Below, one piece after another: positions 369 through 19,922 of a DNA stretch of 37,494 nt; position 1 is the stretch's first letter, and every line of letters begins with the position of its first letter. The position numbers and the translations under genes are program-made. A model generated the notes under the pieces. It was not told the origin of the DNA. It saw only the letters and a list, made by a program, of their open reading frames with translations, and did not search any database. The stretch covers positions 1 through 37,494 of the forward strand of contig CANRZB010000040.1 in NCBI GenBank assembly GCA_947644195.1. The letters are read 5' to 3'. The DNA is from an uncultured Clostridium sp. (GTDB lineage: Bacteria; Bacillota; Clostridia; Lachnospirales; Lachnospiraceae).

Positions 369-409
369 AATTCTAGTATTATTAAGTTGTAAAAAAGGTG
401 GGAAGAAGT

Positions 410-3253
410 ATGGTGAATTTTGTCATTGCATTGGAATGTTTTGGCATATGTTTGACAGCGATCGCTCTATTTCTCCTGCTTAATGGGGATGGAGCTAAAG
501 AGCAGAAACTACTGATCATCATTATGTGTGGTTCCCTGGTACAAAATGTAGGTTACTTATTGGAACTGACTGCACCTACATTAGAGGCCGCATTAACTGC
601 AATCACGGTGGAGAAAGTAGGCTGCGCCTTTACACCACTATGCTATTGTTGGTTTATTTATATCTATTGTTACGTTACTCCGCCAAAGGCGCTATTAAGA
701 ATACTTTTTTTCATTAGTTTCTTATCGCTGCCTGCTGTAGCTTTCAACTGGTATGGTTTATTCTATCGAGAAGTCCAGTGGATAGCAACTACAGATGGCT
801 TTTATCACGTAAGCCTTAACTACGGCCCTCTTTATGTGTTTTTTACGATCGGCCATATTATCATACCCTATGTCCTATGTATCTACACTTTGACAAGTGC
901 GATCCGTGAACGCTCGGATCAACATGTCAACCGACAATATTGGACGATCCTCGTAATTTCTTCTCTGCCCGTTATGGTACTGATCGCTTATGTCTGCAAA
1001 TTCGTGAAAGTATTTGATTTTACCCCACTGACACTGACGATCTCCATGTCTATGGTAGTCATTGTAATATGGAGCCGCCGTAATTATGACTTCCGCCACC
1101 TGGCTGCAGTGAAAGTTCTGGAAAACATGGGGGACGGTGTCATTACCCTGGATGACCACGACCGGCTTGTAAGCTATAATCGGGCGGCAGCGAATATCTT
1201 TACCCATCTGCCCGCCCATAAATGTGGAGAAGACATCCGGGTAGTGGAAGGTTTCCGAGAGGAAATGCTCAACGAGAATATTCCTCAGAGTTTTTCCATC
1301 AATGAGCAACATTATGAAAGCCACAGTAAACATATCGTAGATGAAAACGGCAGAATACAGGGTTGTGTTATTTTAATCCTCGATATGACCGATATAAAAG
1401 CATATATCAAGGAGATCAAACGGGTCAGACATCAGGCAGAAAATGCCAGCATTGCGAAAAGTGAATTTCTCGCAAATATGTCCCACGAAATACGAACTCC
1501 GATGAATGCCATCATTGGTTTGAATGATATCATTATGGAAGAATGTGCAGACACTGAAATCTATGCCCATGCTAAAGATGTACAGTCTGCCGCAAAAAAT
1601 CTGTTGACACTCATCAATGATATTTTGGATCTGTCCAAGGTAGAGGCGGGTAAAATGGAGTTGATCAATGTAAATTATTACATAAAAGTCATGGCAGATG
1701 AAATTATAGGAATGATGGATATGGCTGCTTCTCAACGGGGGCTGGTCCTAAAATATGAATGTGATGAGACCATTCCCTGCCGCTATCATGGCGATGATGG
1801 CAGAATCAAACAGATTCTGATCAATATACTTAGCAATGCAATAAAGTTTACAAAGAAAGGATATGTTCGTGCATATATTACCGGAAAACCTGGAAAAAAA
1901 GCCAATGAAGAACTGCTTACTTTCTGTGTGGAAGATACGGGCTGCGGCATCCGCGAAGAAGACTTAGAGAAAATCTTTGAAGATTTCCGTCAAGTGGATT
2001 CCAAGCGAAACCGGAGCGTTGAAGGCACGGGGCTGGGGCTTGCCATTGTGAAACATCTGGTGGAATTAATGAATGGCAGCATTAATGTAGAAAGTACCTA
2101 TGGAAAAGGCACTACCGTTACCATTACGATTCCCCAGAAAATTGTGGATAAACGCTCTGTTTCCGAGATGCCTGAAATTCCACAGATGGAACAGAAATTT
2201 ACTGATATGTTTACTGCACCTGGCGTGAAAGTGCTGATTGTAGATGATAATGTGATCAACCGTAAAGTGGCAAGGAGTTTTTTGAAAAGTTATTCCTTTG
2301 ACCTTGCGGAAGCAGAAAGCGGGCCAGAGGCAATTGAACTTGTTCATGGCACACGATATGATATCATCTTTATGGATCACATGATGCCTGGCATGGACGG
2401 CATCGAAGCCGCCGAGATCATCCGCAGGGACTGCGGTGAAAATGGAATTGCTCCTGTCATCATTGCATTGACCGCCAACGCCATGGAAGGCATGCGGGAA
2501 CATTTTCTGAACCATGGTTTCCAGGACTTTATTTCAAAACCCCTGGACAGAAAAGAACTAAACCAACTTTTAATTCGCTGGATACCAGAGAAATACAGGC
2601 AAGCAGAAGGCTGGACAGAAGAATCTACCCCATTCAATCCTGAAATCTTCCAGATTGACGGAGTGGATATGGATGCTGCGATGCAATACTATTCCGGAGA
2701 TGAAGAAGGTTTTGTTGATTTGCTGGATCTATACTGTATTGATGGCAAACGTAAAATAAACCTTCTGCGTGAGCTTGTAGATTCTGATATTTTACGCTAC
2801 CAGATAGAGGCACATGGATTAAAAAGCGCATCGGCACATATCGGAGCAATGAATGTGTCCGACATGGCACGTGAACAGGAAAATGCCGCTGCACAGGGCG
2901 ACCGGGAGTTGATCTCAGAGAAATTCCCATTACTATTAGCAGAATATGAAACTCTTATGACAAATATCAGACAGTTTCTGAAACAATACCGGAAGGAACA
3001 TGACGAAATTCAGAAACTTCCCTGCCCGCCGATGCAGGAATTGAAGGAACAAACCGAAGCAGCCCTGGAAAGATTGAAACATTTTCGATCACAGGAATGT
3101 GCAGAAAGAATAGACAAAATGCTGACCTATGAACTGCCAGAAGATGTGGAAAAACAGCTTTTGCAGACACGGGAACAGTTAAAATTATATGAAGATGATG
3201 ATGCTGAGGAGTTGCTGAGCCAACTTCTGGACATTCTAGAAAAGGAGGAATAA
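410..3253 (+). CDS. Membrane hybrid sensor histidine kinase (7TM-PAS-HisKA-HATPase-REC-Hpt)
   Basis: A 947-residue hybrid kinase carrying a complete internal phosphorelay. Residues 1-225 hold about seven membrane segments resembling the histidine-kinase N-terminal 7TM module. A PAS-like segment (about 230-335) follows. Next come HisKA with the SHEIRTPMN H-box (His near 359), HATPase with N-box (Asn near 476) and G boxes (DTGCG, GTGLGL), a receiver domain (acceptor Asp near 656, Lys in SKPLD), and a C-terminal Hpt domain with His near 802 in AHGLKSASA. The last 90 residues are acidic and helical. The frame opens at a GTG at 398, but ATG 410 is preferred because AAGGTGG (396-402) sits at the right distance from it. 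The next gene starts 5 bases after the stop. The signal sensed cannot be read from sequence. Confidence 0.9.
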   Translation: MVNFVIALECFGICLTAIALFLLLNGDGAKEQKLLIIIMCGSLVQNVGYLLELTAPTLEAALTAITVEKVGCAFTPLCYCWFIYIYCYVTPPKALLRILFFISFLSLPAVAFNWYGLFYREVQWIATTDGFYHVSLNYGPLYVFFTIGHIIIPYVLCIYTLTSAIRERSDQHVNRQYWTILVISSLPVMVLIAYVCKFVKVFDFTPLTLTISMSMVVIVIWSRRNYDFRHLAAVKVLENMGDGVITLDDHDRLVSYNRAAANIFTHLPAHKCGEDIRVVEGFREEMLNENIPQSFSINEQHYESHSKHIVDENGRIQGCVILILDMTDIKAYIKEIKRVRHQAENASIAKSEFLANMSHEIRTPMNAIIGLNDIIMEECADTEIYAHAKDVQSAAKNLLTLINDILDLSKVEAGKMELINVNYYIKVMADEIIGMMDMAASQRGLVLKYECDETIPCRYHGDDGRIKQILINILSNAIKFTKKGYVRAYITGKPGKKANEELLTFCVEDTGCGIREEDLEKIFEDFRQVDSKRNRSVEGTGLGLAIVKHLVELMNGSINVESTYGKGTTVTITIPQKIVDKRSVSEMPEIPQMEQKFTDMFTAPGVKVLIVDDNVINRKVARSFLKSYSFDLAEAESGPEAIELVHGTRYDIIFMDHMMPGMDGIEAAEIIRRDCGENGIAPVIIALTANAMEGMREHFLNHGFQDFISKPLDRKELNQLLIRWIPEKYRQAEGWTEESTPFNPEIFQIDGVDMDAAMQYYSGDEEGFVDLLDLYCIDGKRKINLLRELVDSDILRYQIEAHGLKSASAHIGAMNVSDMAREQENAAAQGDRELISEKFPLLLAEYETLMTNIRQFLKQYRKEHDEIQKLPCPPMQELKEQTEAALERLKHFRSQECAERIDKMLTYELPEDVEKQLLQTREQLKLYEDDDAEELLSQLLDILEKEE

Positions 3254-3258
3254 CGTAA

Positions 3259-3672
3259 ATGACGCAAACAGAAGAAACTAATTCCCGAAAACGCATTTTA
3301 GCAGTAGACGATACCGCCGTTGTCTTAACACGAATTTCAGATACTTTACAGAATTATTATGAAGTGATTACTGTTAATTCAGGGGCACGGGCTTTAAGCT
3401 ATCTGAAGGAGGAGAAACCTGACCTGATTCTGTTGGATATCCGAATGGCACAAAAGGACGGCATTACAACGCTGCGGGAAATACGCGCAATGAAAGATTG
3501 TGCAGAGATCCCGGTCATTATGCTTACCGGTGTTGAAGATAAGGACACTGTTCTTGAAAGCGCCAGACTAGGGATCTGCGATTATATACTTAAACCTTTT
3601 ACTTCTGATAATTTATTAAAAAGAATCCACAAAGTATTCATACAGGAAGAACAAAAGAACAATCGTTTGTAA
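3259..3672 (+). CDS. Single-domain response regulator (REC only)
   Basis: A 137-residue stand-alone receiver. It has the acidic pair in AVDDT, phospho-acceptor Asp60 in LILLDIRM, Thr90 in MLTG and Lys112 in LKPF, the full set for Asp phosphorylation. No output domain is present, so it must act by protein contact or as a phosphate shuttle or sink. The AAAGGAGG site lies inside the end of the kinase gene, and spacing to the next gene is 18 bases. The kinase Hpt domain just upstream is the obvious donor, by inference from operon position. Confidence 0.88.
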   Translation: MTQTEETNSRKRILAVDDTAVVLTRISDTLQNYYEVITVNSGARALSYLKEEKPDLILLDIRMAQKDGITTLREIRAMKDCAEIPVIMLTGVEDKDTVLESARLGICDYILKPFTSDNLLKRIHKVFIQEEQKNNRL

Positions 3673-3690
3673 TGAAAGGGGGCGCCTGGA

Positions 3691-4182
3691 ATGAACACAG
3701 CTATGGGACAGGAAGAGCTTGAACACCTATTAGATCAGGCAGTCCAGGATGTAACGGAGCGTACTGCGGGTGTCCGTCTGTACCAGGGACAGAATATCCC
3801 GGGAGATGATTTGTGTACCGTTCAGATCAACTTTGATAAAGGATTCCGCACCAGCCTTACCCTCTGTGCTGATACCGGGCTGCTGTACCGTATGGCATGC
3901 AACTCTTTTCATGAAGAATCCGTCAGTTCCGAAGATGTGGAAGAATTTAGCAAAGAGTATTTTAATGTGCTTTGTGGCAGAATAGTTGGTGCAATGTTCC
4001 GTGCGACACAGATTCCGGCCCATTTTGGACCACCTGTGTTTTATCATGGACGATATGAACCCGAAGGACGTGAAGTGCAATTTGTCCTTACCTATTCCGA
4101 TAAACACTGTGGGGGCGGCGTACAGTTGATCCACCACATACCTAGCTCCAATAAAAAGGAAACTGCTTTCAACAAAACCTGA
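3691..4182 (+). CDS. CheX/CheC-family phosphatase-like protein
   Basis: 163 residues. The central helix carries E-Y-F-N followed by a proline exactly 23 residues after the Asn, matching the E-x2-N-x22-P core of the CheX/CheC phosphatases that dephosphorylate CheY-type receivers. The acidic/Ser position four residues before the Glu is itself Glu, a mild deviation. A GGGGGCG-like site precedes ATG 3691. It lies between two single-domain receivers in one operon, which points to receiver dephosphorylation. No chemotaxis or flagellar gene is visible in the window. Function is inferred from the motif; overall similarity is moderate. Confidence 0.75.
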   Translation: MNTAMGQEELEHLLDQAVQDVTERTAGVRLYQGQNIPGDDLCTVQINFDKGFRTSLTLCADTGLLYRMACNSFHEESVSSEDVEEFSKEYFNVLCGRIVGAMFRATQIPAHFGPPVFYHGRYEPEGREVQFVLTYSDKHCGGGVQLIHHIPSSNKKETAFNKT

Positions 4183-4200
4183 TAGAAAGGAAAATATCAC

Positions 4201-4563
4201 ATGAGCAAACGAATTATGGTAGTAGATGATTCCCGGCTGGTTCGGGTTCAGTTAGGCGATGTTTTGGAAGGTACAGATTATGAGATCGTAGCTCACTGCC
4301 GCAGTGGAGAGGATGCAATTGCACAATATAATGATGTGAAACCAGATCTGGTAACCATGGATATTATTATGCAGGGCATGGACGGCCTGGATGCCTCTGA
4401 ACTTATTTTGAAAGAACATCCAGAGGCAAGAATTGTTATCATTTCTTCCCTGGCATATGATGATACTTTTGAAAAGGCAAAAGCAATTGGTGCAAGAGGT
4501 TTCGTGGATAAACCTTTTCATCAGGAACAACTTCTTAAGGTCTTTGCAGAAGCACTTGCATAA
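4201..4563 (+). CDS. CheY-like single-domain response regulator
   Basis: 120 residues, receiver only. VVDDS acidic pocket, acceptor Asp54 in LVTMDIIM, ISS (Ser at the switch position) and Lys104 in VDKPF are all present. It is the last gene of the operon: the CheX-like gene stops 18 bases upstream, a GAAAGGA site precedes the ATG, and a hairpin terminator follows at 4649. Together with the first receiver it gives two possible phosphate acceptors for one kinase and one phosphatase. Confidence 0.88.
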   Translation: MSKRIMVVDDSRLVRVQLGDVLEGTDYEIVAHCRSGEDAIAQYNDVKPDLVTMDIIMQGMDGLDASELILKEHPEARIVIISSLAYDDTFEKAKAIGARGFVDKPFHQEQLLKVFAEALA

Positions 4564-6800: not shown

Positions 6801-6843
6801 AAAAAACAAGGCGACAGGATCATAATAAATCTCCTGCCGCCTT
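6801..6843 (-). terminator. Strong terminator of the cyclase/TIR/GGDEF operon
   Basis: On the minus strand a 12-base stem formed by 6832-6843 and 6808-6819, with one G-T wobble, a 12-base loop and a six-T tail (6801-6806). It lies about 70 bases after the cyclase stop codon and closes the four-gene operon. Confidence 0.85.
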
Positions 6844-6915
6844 GCTGCTTCCTAAAGAGCCGTCAACCTTCCTCCATATTTTTACTATTCTCATCCCAGT
6901 TACCGGGCAAAAATT

Positions 6916-9420
6916 TCAGTCTCGTTTTTCATAGGTCTGTCCAAAGATATCTTTTTGAATAATATAGATATCCTGTAAGTCATCTTCTCTCACTGCCAGA
7001 TAGTCCCCCGGACGTCCAATAAAATAATCCTGGCTATAGTTGACCGGAAAAACCTTTGTCCTCCTATCCAATGGGCAGGCATAGATCCCTAGTTGATTCT
7101 TGGGATAGCATAGATGGGCAATTTCATCTATACTAATATACTCTTCTTCCGGCAAAGTTTCTATCGTGGGAATAAAATCCAGCATCTGGTCCAGAATATT
7201 TAGACTTTCTTCCGTTGCTTCATATGTTTTATGAAATTTCTCTGCCTTGATATCATATACTTCCCCACGACATCCAATCATAATATAGATATTTTCAGAG
7301 GCGGTAATCGTCATTCCCGATTCATTTTCTAACGACTTGACAAAAAATTTCTTTCCTGCCGGAACGGCATCCGTAGAACGCACATAAGCCCAGGGAATTT
7401 TAATTTTCTGATACTGCTCCATCTGATCCAGGGCATCTTTGTGTTTTCGAATATATTCTGCCGCATAAATACAGGCGCAATCCGAAAAATAGTCCTGACA
7501 CCTCTGTAGAATATAATCGGTGCTCTGCTGCATATTCTGATCTGCCATCTGCACCCGCAAAATCGCTAGAGACATTCGCCCGCCCGCAATGCTGGCATCT
7601 CCTTTGATCAGACTGTACTCCGGAAGAATAAAATCCAAAAATTCCAACGCACGGATCTCCCTGGTATTGCTAAAGAAATTCAGAATCATTTCATCCGATG
7701 ATTCATATACCGTCAACACAAAAGGATAACCCGTATTTTTATGTAAATTCATAGAGATCAATTCAATCAGAGGCAGATTTTCCGTCAACCACAGAATCAT
7801 ACATTTATTTTTCTGATCCCGGAAACATTGTCCGGTAAATGGGATCGATACCGTAAACTCTGCCGGCGTAAAACCATACTTTTCAACTTTTATTATCTCG
7901 CTCAACCTAATATCCTCCCGTAAATCAGACACTTTTTTTGCAAATTCAGAAAAACTCTGGTTAATATGAGTAAAATGCAGGGTAAGAAAATGCTCCCCCT
8001 TTTCCATTATTTTGGCGTAAACATTGGTAAACAGTGCACACCCACTTTCCTGTGCCGCAAAAATCTCCACATCCTGATATTCCTGTAACTCCGTTATCTT
8101 TTCTGCATCCACTGATACTTTGGCCCGTTTGGGAGAAAAATGCGTCAGTTTAGCCATAATGGGATGTTCTGTAATCATTTTTCCAGCCAGAGGATATAGA
8201 TTAAAGATAATGGATGACTTTACAGGAACTAATTTATTGAATTCCACATTTTCCAAATGACATTGATAATTTCCGTCGATCCCGGTTACCTCACAGATCC
8301 GTATCGGTTTTTTGATTCCTTTGGTAATGATATTTCGATGATTATGGGTTTCCAGCGGGCAGTCAATAAATTGCAGGGTATGATGAGAAACCAAAATTTG
8401 CCCACCTACCGTATAGCTTTCGATACGGGAACATTCATTTACCGCATGTCCAATCACATTATAACGCATCATTTTCTGGGACCCAATATTCCCAACAAAC
8501 ATTTCTCCCCGATGAATCCCTATCCCCATTTCCAACTGGGGATATCCCTTAGAACGGTTATATTCATTTACATCTCCCATGCGGTTCTGCATAGTGATCG
8601 CAGCTGCAATGGCGTCCGCTGTCTGGGTTTCCGTATCTAGCGGCGCCCCAAAGACTGCTAGAATCGCATCGCCCAAATATTCCAGCACCATCCCCTGGTA
8701 TTTATTAATGACATGAAGCATTTTCCCAAAAAAGAAATTTAACATATCCGATACAATGTCAGGCTCCAATTGTTCCGATAGAGAGGTAAATCCCCTTAAA
8801 TCAGCCATCAAAACCGTTAATTCCCGCTTCTTACCGCCAATAGCAGCATCTTCCGGATGTTCCAAAATTAGATTTAATAGTTTATCCGAGAAATACTGTC
8901 CAAAAATCCGACGCAACAGTTCATTGCGGGACTGCAACTGTGCATTCAAATGTAAAATCTCCTGGGCAGCCTGCAAATCTACCGCCTGCTCCTGTAATTT
9001 CTTTTCATAGTTTTTGGTTACTTCGTATTGCCATGCAATACGCTCCATGCGTAGAATATTTGACTCTGAAAACGGCTTAGAAAGAATAATAATCGCTCCC
9101 AGGGAATAGCAATATTCATCCAATTCCTCCGATCTTTCAGACATCATAAAAGCAATAGGAACCCCTGCCAGTCCCTGCTGCGCCTTCAGATAAGAAAGGG
9201 TCTGAAAATCCTGTATTCTCTCACTCTCATAATCCAGAATCAGCAGGGCGGGTGTTGTAATGCGGGAAGGGTTCTGACGAAACCGTTCCTCCACCGTTTT
9301 ACATACAGCATCAAAAGAAAGCATGCACAAAGTCCGCATACTGCCGTTTGCATTGATACGCCGCTGCGCTTCAATTATTTCCGCCTTGTTACTGCCGATA
9401 ACCCATATGACTTTTTCCAT
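6916..9420 (-). CDS. Receiver-class III nucleotide cyclase with long C-terminal extension
   Basis: 834 residues. Residues 1-130 are receiver-like (Asp63 in LILDYE, Lys115 in LSKPF). A coiled coil (about 135-175) links to a class III cyclase domain (about 195-380). Metal aspartates Asp207 (MADLRGF) and Asp251 (YLGDAI) and the transition-state pair Asn328/Arg332 (VNECSR) are all present, so catalysis is plausible. The base-selecting positions are Glu247 and Asn321 rather than the usual Lys and Asp/Thr of adenylyl cyclases. Residues 385-510 resemble the beta-rich module that often follows bacterial cyclases. The last 260 residues are unrecognised except for a PGDYLAV...IFGQTYE tail like that of small PGD-type domains. 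It starts 6 bases after the TIR gene; AAAGGA precedes the ATG. The product could be cAMP, cGMP or another cyclic nucleotide. Confidence 0.85.
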   Translation of the reverse strand: MEKVIWVIGSNKAEIIEAQRRINANGSMRTLCMLSFDAVCKTVEERFRQNPSRITTPALLILDYESERIQDFQTLSYLKAQQGLAGVPIAFMMSERSEELDEYCYSLGAIIILSKPFSESNILRMERIAWQYEVTKNYEKKLQEQAVDLQAAQEILHLNAQLQSRNELLRRIFGQYFSDKLLNLILEHPEDAAIGGKKRELTVLMADLRGFTSLSEQLEPDIVSDMLNFFFGKMLHVINKYQGMVLEYLGDAILAVFGAPLDTETQTADAIAAAITMQNRMGDVNEYNRSKGYPQLEMGIGIHRGEMFVGNIGSQKMMRYNVIGHAVNECSRIESYTVGGQILVSHHTLQFIDCPLETHNHRNIITKGIKKPIRICEVTGIDGNYQCHLENVEFNKLVPVKSSIIFNLYPLAGKMITEHPIMAKLTHFSPKRAKVSVDAEKITELQEYQDVEIFAAQESGCALFTNVYAKIMEKGEHFLTLHFTHINQSFSEFAKKVSDLREDIRLSEIIKVEKYGFTPAEFTVSIPFTGQCFRDQKNKCMILWLTENLPLIELISMNLHKNTGYPFVLTVYESSDEMILNFFSNTREIRALEFLDFILPEYSLIKGDASIAGGRMSLAILRVQMADQNMQQSTDYILQRCQDYFSDCACIYAAEYIRKHKDALDQMEQYQKIKIPWAYVRSTDAVPAGKKFFVKSLENESGMTITASENIYIMIGCRGEVYDIKAEKFHKTYEATEESLNILDQMLDFIPTIETLPEEEYISIDEIAHLCYPKNQLGIYACPLDRRTKVFPVNYSQDYFIGRPGDYLAVREDDLQDIYIIQKDIFGQTYEKRD

Positions 9421-9426
9421 GGTAAC

Positions 9427-10365
9427 TCAATTCCTTTTTCCTGTACGCCAAACTCCACTGGAAGTTCGCCTGGTAATTCCTGTTGGCTCTTTGCGTTTGC
9501 ATAATTCACATAGATAACCGGTACGGATAGGAGAACCACACCGTTCACAGGAAATCCGAAAATTACACAGTTTTGGAATTTCCAAATATTCCTCCCGCAA
9601 AAAATATTCTATATTCTTTAACGGGACCCCTGTATCTGCTTCAATCGTTAATGCTGGGGTAGCACCAGCCTTGTCCAAATAGTTTCGTATCGTTTTAAAG
9701 TCATCATAGGTCTCCTTACCACATTCGACACACTGATAAACTCCGCTGGAAATCTTCTTTAATCCCTTGCCACAATATCTACAGCGGTAGGGAATACGGT
9801 TCATGGTTAGCGTCGCACGCGATCCCCGATAAGGATCAAAGCGGGGAGATCCCTTTTTCGCCTGCTCCGGTACTTCTGCAGGTTGATCCTGCGTATTGGT
9901 AGGTTTTTTCTGTTTTTCTATGTTTTTTGCCGATGATTGAGTAACGTCTGTCTCCGTTTGTTCAGGCAATAGATATTCCAGTCGTTTTTGTAAAGCCTGA
10001 AATGCCGCTGCCGCATCATTGTGATAGAAAATCGCCTGCACATTATTCAAGTAAAAATAAAACATGTCATTCATTGGTTCATCATCAATTTTCAACGGCA
10101 GTATCGTCCTGCGATAATGAATGGCAGTATCAATCTCTTTCTCGACCCAGACAGAATCCTGGGATGCCTGTGAGACAATTAACAAAAAAATCTTGCAATC
10201 CCGAATTGCCTGTGGAATTTCTCTGGCATAGCTAGAACCAGCCGGTATCATTTCAGGGGCTTTCCAGTAAGAAATCTTCATTTGCTCCAACAAACGAATA
10301 ACCCTGTCAACCGTCTGAGAGTCCAGAGAACTATAACTAATAAAAACAGTTTTAGCCTTTGCCAT
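9427..10365 (-). CDS. TIR-domain protein with zinc ribbon-HTH-zinc ribbon C-terminus
   Basis: 312 residues. Residues 1-135 form a TIR domain (VFISYSSLD start; SVWVEKE with Glu77 four residues after Trp73, the position of the NADase glutamate in catalytic TIRs; TILPLKID strand). A charged low-complexity linker (136-190) follows. The C-terminus has CxxC pairs Cys195/198 and Cys212/215, a helix-turn-helix-like segment (about 222-262, ALTIEADTGVPLKNIEYFLRE) and a second set Cys273/276, Cys286/289. This half resembles the YvyF-type flagellar-operon proteins of Bacillota. No cyclic-nucleotide-binding, WD40 or STING domain is visible. AGGAGG overlaps the GGDEF gene stop; the gap is 12 bases upstream and 6 downstream. 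It may be an NAD-cleaving effector or a scaffold. Confidence 0.83.
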   Translation of the reverse strand: MAKAKTVFISYSSLDSQTVDRVIRLLEQMKISYWKAPEMIPAGSSYAREIPQAIRDCKIFLLIVSQASQDSVWVEKEIDTAIHYRRTILPLKIDDEPMNDMFYFYLNNVQAIFYHNDAAAAFQALQKRLEYLLPEQTETDVTQSSAKNIEKQKKPTNTQDQPAEVPEQAKKGSPRFDPYRGSRATLTMNRIPYRCRYCGKGLKKISSGVYQCVECGKETYDDFKTIRNYLDKAGATPALTIEADTGVPLKNIEYFLREEYLEIPKLCNFRISCERCGSPIRTGYLCELCKRKEPTGITRRTSSGVWRTGKRN

Positions 10366-10377
10366 ACCCTTTGCCTC

Positions 10378-11550
10378 CTACTGACTAACCACTCGATTAC
10401 GACCCGAAGTTTTCGCTTGGTATAACCTATCATCAACCTGTCCTATATTAACGGCAGCTGTTTTTTCGCTGTCCCATTGCTTTACCCCAAAGGACATGGT
10501 AATATGGATATCCTGCTTGTCAAACGTACAAACGGACTTCTCGATCTTCTGTCTGATCTTTTCTGCATGGTCTGCTGCCTGTTCCAAATTCATATTCTCT
10601 AAAAGTAACACAAATTCCTCTCCACCCCAACGAACCGCATGGCATTGTGGCGGAAGCGTATTCCGAAGAGTATCCGCCACATGGACTAACACAGCATCTC
10701 CGGCATTATGTCCATACGTGTCGTTCACTTTCTTGAAAAAATCAATGTCACACATAATCAGTGATACCGAAGACATACTGTCTCCCACCTCTTCCTGCTC
10801 AAAATGCTCCCAACAGTAATCAAAAAATCCCCGTCTGTTCTGCAGCCCGGTCAAAGCATCCATGTGACTTTCCGTGTATAGGATATGGGACTCCAATGCT
10901 TTACCACAATACACTGCTGCCAAAGTCAGGCGTAAGAGATCCCTGTCGTCAAAGTTACCAGCATTTCCCTCCTCATCAATCTTATTCAAAGCCTGATAAG
11001 CGCCGATTACCCTACCCTTAGAATCTGTTACCGGCATACACAGCATGGATTGCACAGGATAGTTCGCCATTTCACTGGTATTCACATCAAAACGGGGATC
11101 GTTTTTCGGATCATTTAATAAAATAGTTTCGTTACCACTGATGGAAGCTCCTACAATACCACTGCCTTCTGGTACGGTAATCCGGTCACTGCCTAAAGCA
11201 GCAATGGTCCAATATTGCTTCCTCTGGGTATCCCAATACCAAAAAGACGCCCGATCTGCATTCACTAAAGTCTGTCCCAGTTCTGTCAATAGACGGATCA
11301 TGTTGTAGAAATCCTTCTCCCCAGCTAATTGATTCATATAGTAAAATATTTTCTGTAACAAATCTTCTGCAGCTGTTATTTTTTTCATCTCCATAGTAAT
11401 CTCCAATCTGATATCATTCACTAACGTTTGTCCCAGTTCTGTCAATAGATGGATCGTGTTATCGTGTTCTTTCTCTGCAACTAATTGTTCCATATAATTA
11501 AATAATTTCTGTAACAAGTCTTCTGCAGTTGTTAATTTTTTCATCTCCAT
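10378..11550 (-). CDS. GAF-GGDEF diguanylate cyclase with duplicated N-terminal segment
   Basis: 390 residues. Residues 1-52 and 53-104 are tandem copies of one helical segment (both begin MEMKK and run to LTELGQTLVN). A GAF-like domain (about 85-220) is followed by a GGDEF domain (about 228-390) with GGEEF at 309-313 and metal-site CDIDFFKKVND near 267-277, so an active diguanylate cyclase is expected. The RxxD inhibitory site before GGEEF is missing (PPQC), so product inhibition through that site is not expected. An internal ATG at 11394 with its own GGAG site could give a 338-residue form. It is the second gene of the operon, 24 bases after the TIM-barrel gene. Confidence 0.87.
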   Translation of the reverse strand: MEMKKLTTAEDLLQKLFNYMEQLVAEKEHDNTIHLLTELGQTLVNDIRLEITMEMKKITAAEDLLQKIFYYMNQLAGEKDFYNMIRLLTELGQTLVNADRASFWYWDTQRKQYWTIAALGSDRITVPEGSGIVGASISGNETILLNDPKNDPRFDVNTSEMANYPVQSMLCMPVTDSKGRVIGAYQALNKIDEEGNAGNFDDRDLLRLTLAAVYCGKALESHILYTESHMDALTGLQNRRGFFDYCWEHFEQEEVGDSMSSVSLIMCDIDFFKKVNDTYGHNAGDAVLVHVADTLRNTLPPQCHAVRWGGEEFVLLLENMNLEQAADHAEKIRQKIEKSVCTFDKQDIHITMSFGVKQWDSEKTAAVNIGQVDDRLYQAKTSGRNRVVSQ

Positions 11551-11557
11551 AGTAATC
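11260..11557 (-). repeat. 156-bp tandem duplication at the 5' end of the GGDEF gene
   Basis: 11416-11557 and 11260-11401 align without gaps at a period of 156 bases and differ at only about 20 to 25 positions by eye. The block CATCTCCATAGTAATC ends at both 11401 and 11557. The repeated unit includes bases just upstream of the start codon, so the duplication captured the translation start region. Confidence 0.85.
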
Positions 11558-11574
11558 CCCCATACGATATATTT

Positions 11575-12342
11575 CTATAGTAATTGTTTTAAGTATTGCA
11601 GCGAACGGATCTGCTGCTCCGGCTGCTCCGTTTCGATTAAAGTGCTACAGGAAGAAAAATACTTCCGATAATAACATGCGAACTGCTTCCAGTCGATCTC
11701 TCCGTCCCCTACCGCCAGATGCAGATCCCGCTTGAGATCGTTATCATTAATATGTAAATGCCTGACATATTGCGCCAAAGAATCCACCCACACCTCCATT
11801 GCTGTACCGGAAATGACAGCATGGGCATAATCCAGACAAATACCAAATCCCGGGTATGGCTCCAGTTTTTTTGCAATCCTTGCCAATAAATTGGGATTTG
11901 CATCAAACATATTTTCCAAATAGATCTCTATTCCAGGATAATTCTCTAACAGCCGAGCAACATAGTCAGAAACCATCTCCACAACTCGGCAGTCATAGTA
12001 ATCCCCCGATAGTATCGGATTCGAATTGGTATGAAAGATAACTCCTTTCACACCCGCCCTCTTTGCAATGTCCATACTCTGTGCCATGCGCAATTCAGAG
12101 ATACGGCGTATCTGAGGATCTTCACTAAACAACACCACATCCAAAAAAGCTCCATGCATCGTACTGCCTGGCGGCAACCCGACACAACCATACTGGTCTA
12201 ACAGCTCCTGCTGCCGGCAGGAATCCTCCAGAACAGAAGGGACATAGAAATCATTCAGCTCAAACCCCAGATGGTACTCGTCTGCAATTTTCCTATATTC
12301 CTGTATCCGTTCCACTTTAGATACAATTAAAAAATTACCCAT
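11575..12342 (-). CDS. Sugar phosphate isomerase/epimerase-like TIM barrel (AP endonuclease 2 family)
   Basis: 255 residues. The fold pattern is that of xylose-isomerase-like TIM barrels, with the metal-ligand series Glu (IYLENM), Asp/His (ICLDYAHA), His (HLHINDND) and Glu (TLIETEQ). Such proteins isomerise or epimerise sugars or polyols, or cut abasic DNA; the length and loops fit the sugar enzymes better, and the substrate is unknown. The frame can be extended to a TTG at 12417, but ATG 12342 is preferred because GGGAGGA lies 9 bases upstream and the first beta strand starts there. It is the first gene of the operon leading into GGDEF-TIR-cyclase. Confidence 0.75.
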   Translation of the reverse strand: MGNFLIVSKVERIQEYRKIADEYHLGFELNDFYVPSVLEDSCRQQELLDQYGCVGLPPGSTMHGAFLDVVLFSEDPQIRRISELRMAQSMDIAKRAGVKGVIFHTNSNPILSGDYYDCRVVEMVSDYVARLLENYPGIEIYLENMFDANPNLLARIAKKLEPYPGFGICLDYAHAVISGTAMEVWVDSLAQYVRHLHINDNDLKRDLHLAVGDGEIDWKQFACYYRKYFSSCSTLIETEQPEQQIRSLQYLKQLL

Positions 12343-12388
12343 CCACTGGTATCCTCCCACTGTAAAATAATTGCAAACATTTTTAAAT

Positions 12389-12417
12389 AGTGTAACATGA
12401 TTTCCAAGGAATTCCAA
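12389..12417 (-). promoter_or_regulatory. Promoter of the TIM barrel-GGDEF-TIR-cyclase operon
   Basis: On the minus strand TTGGAA (12412-12417), 17 bases, then TACACT (12389-12394) preceded by TG at the extended -10 position. Two direct TTCCAAG copies (12402-12408 and 12412-12418, plus strand) flank a GGAATTCC palindrome and overlap the -35 region, a possible regulator site. Confidence 0.5.
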
Positions 12418-12431
12418 GAGAAATCCCTAAT

Positions 12432-12480
12432 AAAAAATCCCCCCGTATCAGACTGCTATTCTGTCCAATAAAAGGGGGTT
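12432..12480 (-). terminator. Terminator after tsaD
   Basis: On the minus strand CCCCC (12474-12478) pairs with GGGGGG (12439-12444), enclosing a second 7-base stem ATTGGAC/GTCTGAT with wobbles, followed by a T6 tail (12432-12437). It separates tsaD from the signalling operon downstream. Confidence 0.78.
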
Positions 12481-12510
12481 CCTTCCTTTTGTTCCTTATA
12501 TTTTATCCTG

Positions 12511-18056: not shown

Positions 18057-19922
18057 ATGAAAAAACAAAATAATGACACCGCATTGCAAGAGCGGATTCA
18101 ACAAGAAATTGACTTTGATAAATTAAACGATTTTTGCGATCATCTAACCGAAGCGATCCAGGAAATCTTTCGTTCCAGCGGATTATATTTCCGCATTTTT
18201 TCCCGCGTTAAATCTATTGAATCCATCGCAGAAAAAATTACCCGCAGACAGTATGGCACGGAGCAAAATCCCAAAAAGCTCCAAGATCTGGTAGGCATCC
18301 GCGTGGTTCTTTACTACTATGACGATCTCAGTATTTGCCGGGATATCATGGAAAGCACGTTTCAGATGATTGATGAATGGTCACGCACCAATCGAACAGC
18401 AAATGAATTTAAAGCTACAAAAATCAACGGTGTCTTCCGTTTTCCATCGGAATACTTCGGATTATACAAAAAAGAGCTCTGGGAACTGCCGATTGACACG
18501 ACCTTTGAAGTCCAATTTCGCACGATATTTTTTGAGGGCTGGCATGAAATTGAACATGATATGCGTTATAAAAGCCTGCTCTCTGATGAACAATTCTGGA
18601 AAGGTAGTGAGGAACTGTCCCGCATCCTGAACTGTGTCCTGGCAAATCTGGAATTAAGCGACTGGTCCCTGGTACAATTATTTGACCAGCTTTCCTATAA
18701 TCATTATAAAAATGGCAATTGGGAACTGATGCTCAAGAGTAAATTCCGTATTCGAATTGATGATAACAGCACAATGCATCCAGAGATCTCTGCTCTGTTT
18801 GACCGTGAACATGAGACGGCCCTCCAATTTCTGGAATGTTCCCGCAAAGACCTGATCCGGGAATTACTAAAACTGGACGCTGCAAACCTGAATTATAATC
18901 TTATTGTCAAACTGTTAAATAACTGTTTTATCCACAACGAAGAACTCGAAGCTATTTTTACTAAGTTGCCAGAAATACGAGAAGAACGGAACTATCAGAA
19001 AACCGTATTTCAGCGGTTGGATTCCTCCGTATTATTCCATCTGGAACTCCCACTGCTACACAAAGAAACCCGAACACTGGAATCAGAATTTAACAATGGA
19101 GCCAGTATTTTGTTCAAATGGGCCAGATTTAAATTTAATTCGGTATTTGAAGATATGCCTGCAACCTTGTGCAGTTACCGGAACAAACTTCCCGGATACC
19201 GAATTTACTTTGACTATCAACCAGATAAACTAGCGTTCTCCATGAAGATTGATTATATCGACAGCAAGTCCATCGGAACTCTCTGGCATATACATTCCTA
19301 TATTACACAGTTAGAGGATAGAAAACTACATTTTTATCACATGACTTCCCGGGACATGCCAAATGAAATCTCCCAACATTCCACTTTTGTAAAACCATCA
19401 TTTTTGACCGATCTCTCCACGAAAGTAGGGCTGATGGATATCGCACGACTCAGTACCAAGGCACGTTTTATCGTAACGGAAAATGATTTTGTACAATTCC
19501 ATAACCTGATAGAAGATCCCGCACGGAAACTTCCCGTGATCGCTCTTCTACAGCAACAGAAAGAAAACTCCGACGAACAAGGAAAGGAATCATTTGGCGG
19601 TTATGACATGAATACCTTCACGATAAACGGAGTTCGTCTGGCGAAAGTGACTGGATTGTACAGCCATATCTATATGTTGGACCAGGAACGGATCTCCGAT
19701 TTTGCAGAACGGTTTTCCTGCGATGCCTGCCAAATGCCGGGTGCTGTCTGTATCTTCTGGCCACATGATCAGCAGCTGCCTATGGAAGTCTATACACAGG
19801 AAATGATCTGTGCCGCTGATTTTGACTTTAACCATTCGGTATTCCACGACCAAAATATTTCCGAAAAAGCATTTCGCCATAAACTGGTACAGATGATGAA
19901 GGATGATAATGTAATGCATTAG
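18057..19922 (+). CDS. Large RelA/SpoT-domain protein, atypical synthetase motif
   Basis: 621 residues. Residues 25-175 match the RelA/SpoT nucleotidyltransferase domain: RVKSIESIAEK (50-60), the metal Asp77 in DLVGIRV, Glu151 in EVQFRT and GWHEIEHDMRYK. The NGYxSLH segment that stacks the substrate base in canonical (p)ppGpp synthetases is replaced by NGVFRFP (124-130), losing the Tyr and His. No HD hydrolase, TGS or ACT domain is present. Residues 190-320 are helical; 330-621 are an unrecognised mixed domain. It differs from RelP/RelQ in both length and this motif. It may make a different nucleotide or be inactive. Monocistronic, converging on the HtrA-like gene. Confidence 0.78.
   Translation: MKKQNNDTALQERIQQEIDFDKLNDFCDHLTEAIQEIFRSSGLYFRIFSRVKSIESIAEKITRRQYGTEQNPKKLQDLVGIRVVLYYYDDLSICRDIMESTFQMIDEWSRTNRTANEFKATKINGVFRFPSEYFGLYKKELWELPIDTTFEVQFRTIFFEGWHEIEHDMRYKSLLSDEQFWKGSEELSRILNCVLANLELSDWSLVQLFDQLSYNHYKNGNWELMLKSKFRIRIDDNSTMHPEISALFDREHETALQFLECSRKDLIRELLKLDAANLNYNLIVKLLNNCFIHNEELEAIFTKLPEIREERNYQKTVFQRLDSSVLFHLELPLLHKETRTLESEFNNGASILFKWARFKFNSVFEDMPATLCSYRNKLPGYRIYFDYQPDKLAFSMKIDYIDSKSIGTLWHIHSYITQLEDRKLHFYHMTSRDMPNEISQHSTFVKPSFLTDLSTKVGLMDIARLSTKARFIVTENDFVQFHNLIEDPARKLPVIALLQQQKENSDEQGKESFGGYDMNTFTINGVRLAKVTGLYSHIYMLDQERISDFAERFSCDACQMPGAVCIFWPHDQQLPMEVYTQEMICAADFDFNHSVFHDQNISEKAFRHKLVQMMKDDNVMH

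Follow-up and report, generated by a model that had tools for sequence, protein, structure and literature searches.

Layout and conservation of the operon

The 37,494-nucleotide contig analysed here (CANRZB010000040.1, from an uncultured Clostridium sp. of the Lachnospiraceae; hereafter the window) carries on its minus strand a compact operon in which a TIR-domain protein gene adjoins a class III cyclase gene. A sequence-only reading of the window had described four minus-strand genes separated by 24, 12 and 6 bases, and the open reading frame (ORF) coordinates (11575–12417, 10378–11550, 9427–10365 and 6916–9420) bear this out. In 5' to 3' order these genes encode a TIM-barrel protein, a GAF-GGDEF protein, the TIR protein and a cyclase preceded by a receiver (REC) domain. 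Pfam supports the earlier domain calls for all four genes, the receiver alone scoring under its cut-off. The operon ends at an intrinsic terminator (6801–6843, minus strand) made of a 15-pair RNA stem (−25.8 kcal/mol) followed by a U run; its fold z-score of −5.9, with 0 of 200 shuffles as good, agrees with the strength first ascribed to it. The promoter proposed at 12389–12417 fared less well: the TTGGAA-17-TACACT motif is present but weak, matching 8 of 12 consensus bases by our own count, and was not listed by the promoter scan, which needs 9. The TIM-barrel gene starts at ∼12342, as in its orthologues (MGxFLIVSK), rather than at the listed TTG at 12417. Between TsaD and the operon, a hairpin followed by a T run (12432–12485, minus strand; z −3.3, 1 of 200 shuffles as good) is a possible terminator or attenuator; no Rfam family, whether a riboswitch for c-di-GMP or any other, exceeded its gathering score within the window.

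The sequence-only reading had hinged on co-conservation in related genomes, and the genes are indeed co-conserved in the Lachnospiraceae. Among 47 loci fetched after a scan of named genome contigs, the order TIR protein, cyclase, CTD (the C-terminal domain of the cyclase gene, described below) was intact in 44; the exceptions are two contig ends (L053 and L081) and a truncated TIR remnant without cyclase (L087). Most of these loci are labelled Lachnospiraceae and the rest uncultured Clostridia, except for one labelled Bacteroidales, which is the same contig as G188. When 250 Lachnospiraceae genomes, counting the window's own, were searched at the protein level, the two-part TIR protein turned up in 7 and the cyclase subtype (E 1e-135 or better) in the same 7, the next-best cyclase being far weaker (4.4e-72). 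The two collections are not independent, as six of the 47 loci come from the same genomes as G188, G177, G200, G014, G212 and G125. Of 348 genomes sampled across the phylum, 2 gave a match at 1e-40, and these belong to the same family; this is a tally and not a count of matches outside the family.

Upstream of this unit the 44 loci vary: 24 carry both TIM and GGDEF genes (fused as one gene in 5), 4 carry GGDEF alone, 3 TIM alone and 13 neither, some loci, such as L068, having little upstream sequence. In L082 a related GGDEF gene lies downstream on the opposite strand. Because the TIM and GGDEF genes vary in this way, we consider TIR-cyclase-CTD to be the core of the operon and GGDEF to be accessory. 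The addition of a GGDEF cyclase noted earlier thus holds for 28 of the 44 loci, but the two-messenger character derived from it is at best optional, as 16 of the 44, some of them with short upstream sequence, show no upstream GGDEF gene. Spearman coefficients of pairwise distances (cyclase-CTD 0.87, cyclase-GGDEF 0.82, cyclase-TIM 0.71, cyclase-TIR 0.61, TIR-GGDEF 0.42) speak for one inherited unit, of which TIR is the loosest member. It is highly improbable that the four genes are mere neighbours without common function: the TIM and GGDEF genes do come and go, but the core order in 44 of 47 loci, the occurrence in the same 7 of 250 genomes and the five TIM-GGDEF fusions speak otherwise, and chance neighbourhood was ruled out by the conservation of the core order and the shared genomes. 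The operon is therefore real and conserved. It is also apparently undescribed, no description having been found in the literature searched, with subscription papers and preprints mostly outside its reach.

The cyclase and the TIR protein

The cyclase gene (6916–9420, minus strand) encodes a REC domain (amino acids (aa) 1–125), a signal helix, a class III cyclase domain (aa 193–391), an unassigned beta-rich domain (aa ∼395–485) and the CTD (aa ∼509–834). The cyclase domain matches Guanylate_cyc in Pfam at 5.5e-26, and its catalytic residues are kept in 45 of 45 cyclases. In all 45 a Glu replaces the purine-contact Lys, and the nearest structure to the domain is the Cya2 fold (the fold comparison, made with VIA-align, covered cyclase aa 148–391 and TIR protein aa 2–137). 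On these residues the cyclase looks guanylyl-type, not pyrimidine-type. In the REC domain D63 is kept in 43 of 45 rows and K115 in 41 of 45, and the acidic pair is not conserved. PilZ, suspected by eye for aa 395–510, was set aside, as it had no Pfam support in the 8 members scanned.

The CTD forms the C-terminal third of the gene in the window; it is usually a separate gene, being fused in 7 of 45 cases, the window included. It is conserved (mean column identity 51%) and had no PDB sequence match at E 1. Weak PGDYG matches (0.0056, 0.11 and 0.15) and the alignment of its two halves to each other (hhalign probability 76.5%, E 2.2e-5) are consistent with a possible tandem PGDYG-like repeat. Relatives of the CTD are present in 45 of 250 genomes, and one forms the C-terminal domain of DHH (DHH-DHHA1) phosphoesterases (L035 11834–13333, L128 4896–6428 and L129 5606–7117).

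The TIR gene (9427–10365, minus strand) abuts or overlaps the cyclase gene and precedes it in every intact locus. As assigned with Pfam and NCBIfam, its product consists of a TIR domain (aa ∼5–135), a disordered linker and a YvyF-like zinc ribbon, helix-turn-helix (HTH) and zinc ribbon (aa ∼189–292), with zinc-ribbon-like cysteines. TIR_2 matches at 2.9e-20; ThsB_TIR is also above its cut-off (25.7 against 21.2 bits), TIR_2 being far better. In the AlphaFold2 model the pLDDT of the TIR domain is mostly >90, and its nearest fold is the SPARTA TIR. The catalytic Glu of the W-x-x-x-E motif (E77), aligned to that of AbTir, is present in 48 of 48 rows, and W73, E75, K76, E77 and D79, which are NADase-type residues, in 46 of 46. 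In keeping with the earlier assignments, the active-site residues of the TIR, cyclase and GGDEF proteins are all conserved across the aligned rows. The sequence-only reading had also remarked that the TIR protein carries no cyclic-nucleotide-binding domain (CNBD), and Pfam at E 1 found no cNMP_binding domain in any of the four operon proteins. Its proposal that cyclase products control the TIR effector is still an inference, since the TIR protein showed no identifiable nucleotide receptor.

The C-terminal half matches YvyF (TIGR03826, NCBIfam) at 5.2e-16, its 58.9 bits lying under the equivalog cut-off of 124.15. This homology is the starting point of a reading in which the operon would switch lifestyle or motility and NAD+ killing would play no part: the YvyF-like half would provide the output by binding to DNA, to RNA or to a partner from the flagellar or chemotaxis machinery, the TIR domain would serve assembly, and cGMP and c-di-GMP would set the state. 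We hold this to be rather unlikely. The stand-alone YvyF of the genome does adjoin ComFC-like, CheX-like and CheY-like genes (judged by eye), a GGDEF partner is present in 28 of the 44 loci, and two stand-alone receiver genes follow a kinase gene in the window. However, a pure scaffold would not need the five NADase-type residues, the second zinc ribbon is absent from 9 of 48 rows, and no stand-alone YvyF was seen at E 1e-10 in carriers G177, G125, G212 and G014, so that flagella are no obvious common trait. As stand-alone YvyF was not seen in all carriers, the motility link was rejected.

The gene order and the CTD can be read in another way, in which the TIR protein, like that of Thoeris, would make a cyclic ADP-ribose variant sensed by the CTD or by the beta-rich domain of the cyclase, placing TIR upstream of the cyclase. 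The invariable position of the TIR gene before the cyclase gene fits this, as does a conserved CTD that has no assigned function and is also found on DHH-DHHA1 phosphoesterases. Pfam found no SLOG or other known ADP-ribose sensor in the operon, which argues the other way, and we consider this order of events improbable.

The accessory TIM-barrel and GGDEF genes

The TIM-barrel gene (11575–12342, minus strand) is accessory and encodes a member of the AP endonuclease 2 superfamily (Pfam AP_endonuc_2, 1.5e-19), a predicted three-metal phosphodiesterase. An alignment of 33 rows, down to 28% identity, has 19 invariant columns, among them nine ligand-type residues (H, H, E, D, H, H, D, H, E), a pattern that we take to be that of the endonuclease IV zinc ligands. 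The profile matches MJ1311 (3.7e-28), TTHB071 (4.3e-16) and endonuclease IV entries down to 9.3e-11; eight of the nine residues align with endonuclease IV entries 8edd and 8axy, and H63 only with MJ1311 and TTHB071. The protein scores under the curated Nfo cut-off (27.6 against 129.65 bits) and also under that of CbiR.

TIM genes were found at 39 places in 38 of 250 genomes. The window and 24 of the 38 fetched places have a class III cyclase gene within 6 kb of the TIM gene, which makes 25 of 39: 23 of 27 among the closer relatives and 2 of 12 among the weaker ones. Outside the TIR operon the proportion is 22 of 36, and the partners there include CHASE2-cyclases, cNMP-binding proteins (one with SpoIIE) and GGDEF or GAF-HD proteins. 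The TIM protein is thus a partner of cyclases independently of the TIR operon, and would most simply be read as a phosphodiesterase. The linkage in 25 of 39 places suggests a candidate new class of cyclic-nucleotide phosphodiesterase. A broad Lachnospiraceae signalling neighbourhood can also be seen, in which TIM genes lie near class III cyclase genes in L160-L166, L168, L169, L172-L175, L179 and L182-L186, several of these loci also holding genes for cNMP-binding, SpoIIE, GGDEF or GAF-HD proteins. In L124, L125 and L126 cNMP-binding genes adjoin cyclases of the E-G type; L124 and L125 are CNBD-TIM-cyclase operons, whose cyclases are, outside the TIR operon, those most closely related to the window's.

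The GAF-GGDEF gene (10378–11550, minus strand; Pfam GAF 4e-11, GGDEF 3e-41) encodes a predicted diguanylate cyclase and is likewise accessory. Its GGEEF motif and D216, N224 and D233 (numbered from the trimmed start) are present in 29 of 29 rows. The first 52 codons are a tandem duplication: 156 bp, 84% identical, are repeated at 11259–11570 at the start of the gene, and the orthologues viewed lack the duplication. The conserved start is therefore placed at about codon 53.

Proposed signalling circuit and comparison with known systems

The best-supported reading, to which we give a little less than an even chance, is that these genes form a dedicated signalling operon of the Lachnospiraceae: phosphorylation would control a guanylyl cyclase, and this in turn a TIR NADase, with an optional c-di-GMP arm and a predicted phosphodiesterase. 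A kinase would phosphorylate the REC domain, which would then gate the cyclase and its synthesis of cGMP. Through the cyclase, the cyclase product or the CTD, the TIR protein would be either restrained or activated and, once released, would cleave NAD+ or make a cyclic ADP-ribose signal. The accessory GAF-GGDEF protein would add c-di-GMP, and the TIM barrel would be a three-metal phosphodiesterase ending one of the signals. The analysis establishes the order of the genes, their domains, the conserved active-site residues and the association of TIM with cyclase genes beyond this operon, whereas all enzyme activities, the role of the kinase and the control of the TIR domain are inferred. The step from messenger to TIR protein is the weakest of this mechanism. 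If the mechanism is correct, a CNBD-free TIR enzyme would be controlled by a bacterial circuit that works with a cyclic mononucleotide and takes in ordinary sensory signals (phosphorelay and GAF), and cGMP signalling and TIR/NAD+ biology would be joined in common gut bacteria. A more specific version strikes us as doubtful: a REC-gated guanylyl cyclase would have as its direct output the TIR NADase with its YvyF-type zinc-HTH-zinc half and no CNBD, and the TIM proteins would be a new cyclic-nucleotide phosphodiesterase family built on the endonuclease IV three-metal barrel. Throughout the Lachnospiraceae this family would also serve class III cyclases of the adenylyl type (K-T) and others of the guanylyl type (E-G).

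In the window the kinase could be a seven-transmembrane (7TM) hybrid histidine kinase (398–3253, plus strand), a candidate REC partner with HisKA_7TM, HisKA, HATPase and REC domains, Pfam Hpt not being reported at 1e-5. Across 890 columns, among them the Hpt region, it shares 32% identity with the kinase encoded directly upstream of TIR in G200, and it carries the only HisKA_7TM found in its genome. In L065, L066, L071 and L073 a 7TM hybrid kinase gene with receiver and Hpt domains lies 16–23 bp upstream of the TIR gene. HisKA_7TM is present in 7 of 7 carriers but also in 52 of 100 genomes; the kinase link is therefore suggestive only, and the association itself was discarded as weak evidence. 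In the window (398–4563) the gene for this kinase precedes two genes for stand-alone receivers and one for a CheX-like protein (so judged by eye), and a 621-aa protein with a RelA_SpoT domain is encoded at 18057–19922.

Several observations weigh against the proposed circuit. The second base-contact residue of the cyclase is N in 43 of 45 rows and S in 2, and N is not among the residues listed for guanylyl cyclases at this position (C/S/T/H/A/G; PMC4215837). The REC domain is under the Pfam cut-off (0.0055) and is without a conserved acidic pair, and none of the known cGMP-binding domains was found among the operon proteins. The TIR distances track those of the cyclase less well (0.61) than do the CTD (0.87) or GGDEF (0.82) distances. 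Finally, 3.7 kb separate the window kinase gene from the operon, which is on the opposite strand, and HisKA_7TM is a widespread domain, present in 52 of 100 genomes as compared with 6 of 6 other TIR carriers and the window's.

An anti-phage function was also considered, in which the cyclase, as in Pycsar, would sense infection and make a cyclic mononucleotide, and the TIR protein would kill the cell by NAD+ depletion. The patchy presence of the operon (7 of 250 genomes) and the SPARTA-like TIR fold favour it, as do PADLOC PycC models, which match the cyclase (best 6.6e-23), as one might expect them to match class III cyclases in general. In L075, the same locus as L036, the upstream genes include one for a further TIR protein (TIR-DUF6273) and one for an AAA helicase-DUF2726, and the truncated TIR-YvyF remnant of L087 (9959–10660) lies beside an apparent DNA methyltransferase/restriction-modification set (by eye). 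However, a CNBD is lacking from the TIR protein and from the rest of the operon, the cyclase has a guanylyl-type residue and a Cya2 fold, and the partners are sensory or regulatory (REC, GAF and hybrid kinases). Nor does the context help: 46 PADLOC models found matches in the 113 flanking genes scanned, none of them in >4 genes, and the Pfam tally was mostly ordinary. The PADLOC scan took in 113 of 156 flanking ORFs, leaving out 33 of >480 aa and, by hand, 10 of the other 123, and had no control set. No relative of the TIR protein was found in viral contigs, and no copy in phages or plasmids, as 4 phage records and 1 plasmid record match the YvyF-like half only; the phage records (H1–H4), which are unannotated and come from human faeces, encode YvyF-like proteins. 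An anti-phage role is thus unlikely in our view, and nothing points strongly to defence. Of the sequence-only reading as a whole, the co-conservation, the lack of a CNBD and the usual addition of GGDEF stand, whereas proximity to defence islands is not supported so far. A neighbourhood of NAD+ metabolism genes was likewise not retained: downstream of the operon lie NadA in L050 (13741–14655, Pfam; once among the 113 flanking genes) and nicotinamidase and NAMPT-like genes in L070 (from 14500 onwards, by eye), which are too few.

The operon resembles several known systems in part and fits none of those with which it was compared. As in Pycsar (PycC and PycTIR), a class III cyclase gene adjoins a TIR protein gene. 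In an excerpt of PMC11224242, however, PycTIR is an N-terminal CNBD followed by TIR, whereas here TIR is N-terminal, the C-terminal half is YvyF-like and the cyclase has a REC domain and a guanylyl-type Glu. Since PycTIR joins a CNBD to TIR and the operon proteins are without CNBD, the operon is not Pycsar. The TIR fold and catalytic Glu are shared with Thoeris ThsB, SPARTA and AbTir, but the constant partner here is the cyclase, without ThsA, Argonaute or STING. Pfam and PADLOC found no ThsA-type effector domain in the operon proteins, and Pfam no CD-NTase domain of the CBASS type, the PADLOC oligonucleotide-cyclase match of the GGDEF protein being just 2.3e-4. The zinc ribbon-HTH domain is that of YvyF, fused here to TIR and under cut-off. 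The TIM protein shares the AP endonuclease 2 superfamily and ligand-type residues with endonuclease IV, CbiR and MJ1311, and differs in the linkage of its gene to class III cyclases and in scoring below the Nfo and CbiR cut-offs. According to a partial text of PMC7733943, CbiR illustrates that this superfamily can act on non-DNA phosphoesters. The cyclase domain has the fold of Synechocystis Cya2 (43% identity) and its Glu at the base-contact position, but its second base-contact residue is N, where Cya2 has G, REC and CTD are added, and the operon includes a TIR protein. Finally, in Xanthomonas XC_0250/XC_0249 a class III guanylyl cyclase is linked to a GGDEF protein that carries a cNMP domain and connects cGMP to c-di-GMP (as given in an extract of PMC3770947); here, in comparison with that extract, GAF replaces the cNMP domain and the constant partner is the TIR protein.

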